Shown: piece after piece, positions 47,619-49,432 of the stretch
Position numbering within the stretch: the stretch's first letter is position 1
How the letters are laid out: each line of letters starts with the position of its first letter
NCBI GenBank assembly: GCA_022661535.1
Contig: JAKULF010000005.1
Span: 4,340,001-4,404,000 of the forward strand
From: Eutypa lata
Taxonomy: Eukaryota > Ascomycota > Sordariomycetes > Xylariales > Diatrypaceae
Direction of reading: 5' to 3'
Length of the DNA stretch: 64,000 nucleotides
The notes under the pieces: model-generated
What the model saw: only the letters and a program-made list of their open reading frames with translations
What the model was told of the DNA's origin: nothing
Database searches by the model: none
Position numbers and translations under genes: made by a program

Positions 47619-47873
47619 TCAAGCCGTCATACTAGAGCGAAGCGGGCTGGGCGACGCGACCTGTCGGGCGGTATGCTCGGAGGTCGCTGGGCCGATTTTC
47701 TGAAGACGCCGCTGTGTGAAAGACTGCGGCGCTGACCCCCCCGCAGGGGTTGACTTCAGCTTTGACGCGGGAGGTTCCGGTAATGGGCGCTCCGGTTCTT
47801 TCGTGACAGGTGCCTGCTTGGACGCGACTGCTTGAGTTTGTCCCTCGTCAATGACGAGGGAATCCTCAACGGG
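47619..47873 (-). other. 84-codon stop-free in-frame extension after the eRF1 stop
   Basis: Immediately downstream of the eRF1 TGA (next base C), the same frame stays open for 84 codons to a TGA at 47619-47621. It has no ATG until four codons from its end, so it cannot easily be a separate ORF. The translation is Pro/Ser/Lys/Gln-rich and looks like disordered protein (KQAPVTKEPERPLPEPP, SFTQRRLQKIGPATSEH). Sequence composition is more GC-rich than nearby intergenic DNA. It could be a readthrough extension or chance; by eye I estimate a chance open frame of this length at a few percent. Confidence 0.4.
47832..47869 (-). promoter_or_regulatory. Stem-loop just 3' of the eRF1 stop codon
   Basis: On the mRNA strand an inner 9-bp perfect stem pairs TCCCTCGTC (47861-47853) with GACGAGGGA (47849-47841) across a 3-nt ATT loop. 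It is extended by an outer 5-bp stem, TTGAG (47869-47865) with CTCAA (47836-47832), around a small internal loop. The outer stem starts 4 nt, and the inner stem 12 nt, after the UGA. This is the placement of structures that stimulate stop-codon readthrough in known cases. Confidence 0.6.
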
Positions 47874-49432
47874 TCAATCGTCGTAGTAGTCATCGTCGTC
47901 GTCTACTTCGGCTAATTGCTCAAAGTTCACCTTGTAGCGGAGAATACCGCCAATGCCACCAAAACCCTTGACGAACTGATTGCCTTCAGTGGACCGATCC
48001 GACACGAACTCGAGGTTCGTGCCGAAGTCCTTATAATGCTCGGCGATCCACTCAAGGAAAGATTCCTGGGAAATAACCTCCATTTCTTGACCGGTCTGCT
48101 TGTCCATGAATGCAGAGCGGTCTCCAGTCTCCTGCTGTTTGGTGGTATGGAGAGTAGTCTCATTCCCGTCAGTATCTCTTAATTTCCATCGGGTGAGTTC
48201 CAAGTTTTCGAATACGATCAGAATTTCGACGGCACCAAGTTCGAGAGCCTTGAGGGTATCTTCAACACCGTAGCAGACCTTTCCGGTATCCTGGCTGATT
48301 TCTTCAAAATATTTCCCGATGAGTTTCTTCTCCTGGATAAATTTGACATTGCCAAGGGTCTCCGAGGAGAGTTCGATAGCCTGGTTGAAGCCGTTTTCAC
48401 CACCATAGGAAACATCGACGACCTTGATGACCTTGGTGGCTAATCGCTGGTCGAACATATCTGAGGCGTTCAGGTCGTTCTTGAAATCAGCAGAACCGGC
48501 AAGAATTATCCCGGCGACGTTAACTTTGTCATTCGTGATGAAGTTCTGGACAGCTAATTCTGCTACCTTTCGGACGTAGTTGTGTCGCTTTTCCTCTCGG
48601 AGACGTGCGAAACGAAGAGCAGACTGACCACCACGACCGTGCTTCTTGGGAAGATCGACCGAGAACTTGTGAACCACTTCACGAGTGTTTCCGCTGAGAG
48701 TACCAAAGAGTGCACCGTTACCATCCATGATGATGAAGCCAAACTTCTGATCGGACTCGAGCAATTCGGCCAACGCTTCGGTGTGGAACTTGTTGTCACA
48801 TAGGTATAGGGAGGTGTTGATGGGCTTGAATGGCTCGAAGTCGATATTGACCTTTCTTTCCTTCCCTTCTGAAGTCAAGATTTCACCGCAGTAGACAACA
48901 AGGCCGTTGGGAGGCACCTTGTTGTATAGCTTGAGTCGCTGCTGGGTGGAAGTAATGGCCGAGAGCACGGACTGTCTGTTGACACGAGACTTGATGTTCG
49001 AGGCAGTACCCTAGTAGCATTGTTAGTCGATAGATACGTGACACAAGCATGGTTAGGTAGAAAGTCATACATATTCTTCAGCCAACATCTTGGCTGCTCG
49101 CGATACTTGATCCTTAGGGGCTAAACAGCGCGTCTTAGTACCTTGCCTCAACCTGTTGGAAAAGGCGGGGGAGGGGTAAAAAAATGCATACGGATAATTA
49201 GGGAAATCATGCTGGTGCCATTTCCTCGAGCAGCCTCAAGGCGCTTGATCAACTTCTTCACCTTCCATATCTCGATCTGTAGGAACAGGATTGGTCAGTG
49301 ATTGGGCATATGGAAAACAGGACACTTTTGTATGTCAGACTTGGCGGAGCGGGGTGTATATCCCGAGGGTAGGCGAGGTTCTGCGTTGGAACTTACGTTC
49401 TTCTCGGCTTCGTTAGCCTGAGCGTCGCTCAT
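47874..49432 (-). CDS. SUP45: Eukaryotic peptide chain release factor subunit 1 (eRF1)
   Basis: Four exons, complement(join(47874..49010,49071..49120,49192..49276,49397..49432)), encode 435 aa, the family length. The N domain carries GTSMISLIIPP, NIKS (62-65) and YLCDNKF (126-132), the stop-codon decoding motifs. The M domain has the peptidyl-tRNA hydrolysis motif GGQ at about 184-186 (in KHGRGGQSALRF). The C domain, which binds eRF3, ends in the conserved acidic tail DDDDDYYDD. eRF1 recognises all three stop codons and releases the nascent chain. The stop is TGA followed by C, with the stem-loop and open extension described separately. Introns cluster at the 5' end, as usual for conserved fungal genes. 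Confidence 0.97.

Follow-up and report, generated by a model that had tools for sequence, protein, structure and literature searches.

Putative autoregulation of the eRF1 gene of Eutypa lata through stop codon readthrough and nonsense-mediated decay

Does the eRF1 gene of Eutypa lata limit its own mRNA through readthrough of its stop codon? The question was raised by a sequence-only reading of the window (the whole stretch of 64,000 nucleotides analyzed here), which proposed a self-regulating readthrough loop at this gene. Such a loop was the best explanation that we found for the locus, and the extension behind the stop codon proved to be conserved in three relatives. The proposal had, however, overlooked a predicted 3'UTR intron, from which the loop would gain its output. 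Judged from sequence, the locus probably forms an eRF1 autoregulatory circuit of readthrough and nonsense-mediated decay (NMD), with putative help from a hairpin just behind the first stop codon.

The gene and the open frame behind it are arranged as follows.

47874..49432, minus strand: eRF1 coding part, four exons for 435 aa (from the spliced translation, with visually placed exon borders)
49432-49397, 49276-49192, 49120-49071 and 49010-47874, minus strand: the eRF1 exons (spliced translation)
47874..47876, minus strand: stop 1, TGA followed by C, in the context UGA CCC GUU (read from the sequence)
47622..47873, minus strand: in-frame extension of 84 codons (sequence and the homologues P0001, P0002 and P0003)
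47619..47621, minus strand: stop 2, UGA (read from the sequence)

The last exon matched the Pfam families eRF1_1, eRF1_2 and eRF1_3 (PF03463, PF03464 and PF03465), all above the cut-off, and the gene thus has the three domains required of a class I release factor. The encoded protein ends in DDDDDYYDD, followed by UGA-CCC. A UGA followed by C, as had been claimed, was indeed found at 47876-47874. The strong readthrough context after a stop is CUA, from which the six bases behind stop 1, CCCGUU, differ. We also considered a second eRF1 gene in the genome, but the other PF03463 match was assigned to pelota by NCBIfam, with 174.8 bits for a 290-aa piece against a cut-off of 177.65. This Pelota/Dom34 homologue (L001:682-1902, minus strand) is an open frame of 406 aa with an acidic C-terminal tail.

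The 84 open codons reported behind the eRF1 stop were confirmed, the frame running to the TGA at 47621-47619. How often would such a frame arise by chance? Among 20,000 intergenic windows of 84 codons from the same genome, 407 were open, 31 had a codon score at least as high as that of the extension, and 23 were open and had such a score. The extension frame scored 46 bits; since its other five frames were also positive (26 to 29 bits), the score partly reflects G+C content. At least 84 open codons followed 2 of the 36 long open reading frames in 234 kb, eRF1 being one of the two; these frames were taken as found, and their ends may not be true gene ends. The extension is present once in the genome, with two further weak matches (E values of 0.012 and 0.37). 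It matched no Pfam family up to an E value of 1, and positions 47000-48100 gave no Rfam match up to the same value. The extension is unlikely to belong to the next gene as a coding exon, since the ATG of that gene, which encodes a prephenate dehydratase, was read at 46435. The prephenate dehydratase gene (44797-46435, minus strand; PF00800 at E 4.8e-41 on the last exon) encodes an enzyme with long internal stretches rich in serine, glycine and threonine.

Conservation of the extension frame, which the sequence-only reading had asked for, was found in three protein models from Xylariaceae. With the extension of the window as the query, the eRF1 of Xylariaceae sp. FL0255 (P0001) was recovered at an E value of 2.5e-12; the 158 candidates included no other eRF1 protein with E ≤ 1. 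With P0001 as the query, P0002 (Xylariaceae sp. AK1471) followed at 7.1e-19 and P0003 (FL0662B, a cluster of 16 members) at 4.4e-15, so that P0002 and P0003 are linked to the extension of the window by way of P0001. Searches at E ≤ 10 from P0001 (81 candidates) and P0003 (136 candidates) returned the same three proteins. All three protein searches used the extension alone, a design in which eRF1 models ending at the UGA could not appear. Because three eRF1 models from Xylariaceae carry a homologous extension, the frame is not due to chance. The earlier caution that the open frame alone could be chance is right as far as the frame by itself goes, given the 407 open intergenic windows, and is overtaken by the homologous extensions. 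The open frame and the stem taken alone are modest evidence; a homologous extension in other species is strong evidence.

The conservation was uneven along the extension. Among the four sequences, pairwise identity was 93 to 95% for the eRF1 residues up to the tail and 85 to 92% in the domain 3 region. Within the extension, it was 47 to 74% over the first 20 residues and 11 to 41% in the middle, and it rose again in the following block.

47622..47723, minus strand: conserved C-terminal block of the extension, the last 34 codons (71 to 85% pairwise identity, four sequences)

All four extensions end in MTA. The relatives are represented by protein sequences, and conservation was measured at the peptide level. 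The pattern looks like that of a constrained peptide more than that of a drifting UTR; the constraint may nevertheless act on the RNA rather than on the peptide. Since an open frame is all that escape from decay needs, the conservation of the C-terminal block hints at a further role of the extended protein. The block contains PSPLRS, which we take to resemble a proline-directed phosphorylation site. Viral contigs were also searched for relatives of eRF1, and none was found there. The sole other eukaryotic-type eRF1 DNA found in genome contigs lay in a contig assigned to a Verrucomicrobiaceae MAG (L030:2800-4345); this gene ends with TAA and TAG in tandem, followed by 16 codons to the next stop. 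It is broken by intron-like stretches and looks like eukaryotic contamination of a bacterial MAG.

We then turn to the RNA directly behind stop 1, for which the sequence-only reading had described a 9-bp inner stem with a 3-nt loop and a 5-bp outer stem. Distances are counted from the U of the UGA.

47832..47869, minus strand: bipartite stem-loop, +8 to +45 (folding and genomic comparison)
47869-47865 with 47836-47832, minus strand: outer stem of 5 bp, +8..+12 with +41..+45
47861-47853 with 47849-47841, minus strand: inner stem of 9 bp with a 3-nt loop, +16..+24 with +28..+36

Folding of the stop region, also asked for, returned both stems and the loop, and the coordinates agreed with the claim that the stems begin 4 and 12 nt past the UGA. 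The minimum free energy of the 61-nt fold was −26.1 kcal/mol (z −4.03), and that of the 48 nt from +8 on was −21.2 kcal/mol (z −3.91), with 0 of 200 shuffles as good in either case. A stable stem-loop, as required for stem-loop-stimulated readthrough, is therefore present close behind the stop (+8 to +45). Equally stable 61-mers made up 165 of 20,000 random ones and 10 of 5,613 matched for GC, and a perfect 9-bp stem with a loop of 3 to 8 nt occurred in 316 of 20,000 random 60-mers. In the relatives, the aligned peptides SLVSNEG, SLVFNEG and SFINTEG, against SLVIDEG in the window, would permit 9, 9 and 8 of the 9 inner pairs, respectively; of 1,584 heptamers drawn from these proteins, 26 permit 9 pairs and 172 permit 8. 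Because the peptides of the relatives are related to each other, retention of the stem as judged from them is only suggestive. The hairpin could still be due to chance, even though the frame is not. Matches to the hairpin pattern in 2 viral contigs, and to a codon pattern for ATSEHTA in 25, were taken for chance.

A decay circuit of this kind needs a spliced 3'UTR intron more than 50 nt past stop 1 but not more than 50 nt past stop 2. The following candidate was found.

47536..47594, minus strand: predicted 3'UTR intron of 59 nt, with a GTGAGT donor, a TACTAAT branch-like site and a CTAG acceptor

The predicted donor lies 279 nt past stop 1 and 24 nt past stop 2. The predicted intron and coding intron 3 of eRF1 (49070-49011) both end in ATGCTACTAG. 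The strictest intron signature, which was composed after the candidate had been seen, occurred 8 times in 468 kb of single strand (candidate included) versus 2 to 3 times in each of five first-order random resamplings. The chance of finding it within the 623 nt examined is about 1% at the real rate and 0.3% at the resampled rate, odds that are a guide only because the signature is post hoc and is not matched by any of the three introns in the eRF1 coding part. None of these three fitted either of two stricter patterns, and one fitted a loose pattern that had no power (0.485 per kb in the real sequence versus 0.516 in the resampled one). By its donor, branch-like site and acceptor, 47594-47536 is a good candidate for a fungal intron.

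These elements would act together as follows. With efficient termination at stop 1 (UGA-C), an exon junction complex (EJC) would stay about 280 nt downstream, and the mRNA would be marked for NMD. When eRF1 is scarce, some ribosomes would pass the UGA-C, aided by the hairpin directly behind it, translate the 84 codons and halt at stop 2, 24 nt short of the junction. EJCs sit about 20 to 24 nt before a junction, and a ribosome at stop 2 would be near enough to displace the complex, sparing the mRNA. The net effect would be that eRF1 limits its own mRNA. The in-frame extension that such a circuit requires is present behind the UGA-C of eRF1 (84 codons, with homologues in 3 relatives), and so are NMD and EJC factors, of which Mago, UPF3, UPF2 and UPF1 were found in the genome. 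We infer the splicing of the 3'UTR intron, the readthrough, the decay and the stimulation by the hairpin.

Circuits of this kind were compared with the locus. The 3'UTR intron of N. crassa eRF1 is said to be spliced, and its mRNA stabilized in NMD mutants (Zhang and Sachs, 2015); Kurilla et al. reportedly propose such circuits in many fungi. The sequence-only reading knew of none in filamentous fungi, in which it was mistaken: autoregulation of N. crassa eRF1 by readthrough and 3'UTR-intron NMD was reported by Kurilla et al. in 2020 (FEBS Lett 594:3504), according to the title cited in PMC10578600. By that title, the N. crassa circuit shares with the window the gene, the class (Sordariomycetes), the readthrough and a 3'UTR intron as the decay trigger, the last being predicted here. 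The sequence-only reading was right about plants, for which PMC11062462 describes little readthrough and NMD at high eRF1 levels, and readthrough without NMD at low levels. Plant eRF1-1 (Nyiko et al. 2017), as outlined there, combines a long 3'UTR, a distant intron, decay after termination and escape by readthrough, the same logic as proposed here, and the plant and fungal circuits are likely of independent origin. For the hairpin, the closest comparison is Drosophila dfr, in which a stem-loop at +9 to +59 promotes readthrough, as shown by mutation, in a manner dependent on its stability and its distance from the stop (PMC13170385, in part). The fungal hairpin at +8 to +45 begins one base nearer the stop; dfr differs in being an unrelated gene with a UAG codon, and its effect is experimental, whereas the fungal hairpin is known from folding. 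The same portion of PMC13170385 mentions no decay circuit for dfr. In alphaviruses, readthrough of a UGA is raised up to 10-fold by a conserved stem-loop that lies no more than about 150 nt downstream (PMC8310308, in part). The UGA and the downstream stem-loop are shared with the window, but there they serve viral polymerase expression without a feedback loop. A literature search by title found nothing on this locus, on hairpins in fungal readthrough or on readthrough in Xylariales beyond the works cited.

Could the stop be removed by splicing instead of being read through? A short intron would then take out the acidic tail together with the stop codon, and the extension would replace the tail. 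The models of P0001, P0002 and P0003 all reach the extension in this way and share one junction, at which QLAE leads into (L/F)(E/D)ES. The stretch absent from these models is, however, only 36 nt in the window (12 columns), very short for an intron, and it ends in CCC rather than AG. We counted 20 GT-AG pairs of 35 to 150 nt whose use would excise the stop and keep the frame; all of them lack a G at donor position 5, and no more than two of four donor positions match even in the best. The least bad, a 66-nt in-frame pair at 47930-47865, does show a branch-like TTGAC, placed 8 nt ahead of its AG. Gene prediction programs can introduce a spurious short intron that connects the coding stretches on either side of a stop, and we take the introns of the relatives at this place to be annotation artefacts caused by readthrough. 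Splicing is the main rival explanation, though an unlikely one.

Other readings keep only a part of the circuit. The 3'UTR intron might make the eRF1 mRNA an NMD target with the open frame merely incidental, and spliced 3'UTR introns do induce EJC-dependent NMD in N. crassa (PMC10578600, in part). We regard this as quite improbable, for it leaves unexplained both the conservation of the extension in four species and the 24-nt spacing from stop 2 to the donor. Conversely, the main purpose of readthrough might be a longer eRF1 that has a function of its own, with the intron absent or irrelevant. The identity of the C-terminal block, 71 to 85%, comes near that of the domain 3 region (85 to 92%) and exceeds that of the middle (11 to 41%), in keeping with such a function; the predicted 3'UTR intron and its placement, and the circuits known in Neurospora and plants, speak against it, and we hold it to be very unlikely. 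A chance open frame beside a chance hairpin could draw on the 407 open windows of equal length and the 316 random 60-mers with a 9-bp stem, but in the face of the homologous extension in three other species it is hardly credible.

The preferred reading, a readthrough and NMD circuit, leaves room for a role of its product. It is possible, though doubtful, that hairpin-stimulated readthrough yields a functional longer eRF1 whose 34-residue tail alters the behavior or the fate of the release factor. If so, a second eRF1 isoform would be made exactly when termination is weak. The kind of circuit is already known in filamentous fungi; novelty may lie in the hairpin and in the conserved tail. The gene models of the relatives suggest, moreover, that readthrough can be masked in annotation by a predicted intron. 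The circuit proposed here would add relatives of the Xylariaceae to the few organisms in which this known feedback loop has been sampled and, if the tail peptide and the hairpin hold up, the loop would also make a conserved second form of eRF1. Whether readthrough of the eRF1 gene only spares the mRNA, or whether the longer product matters too, thereby becomes a testable question.
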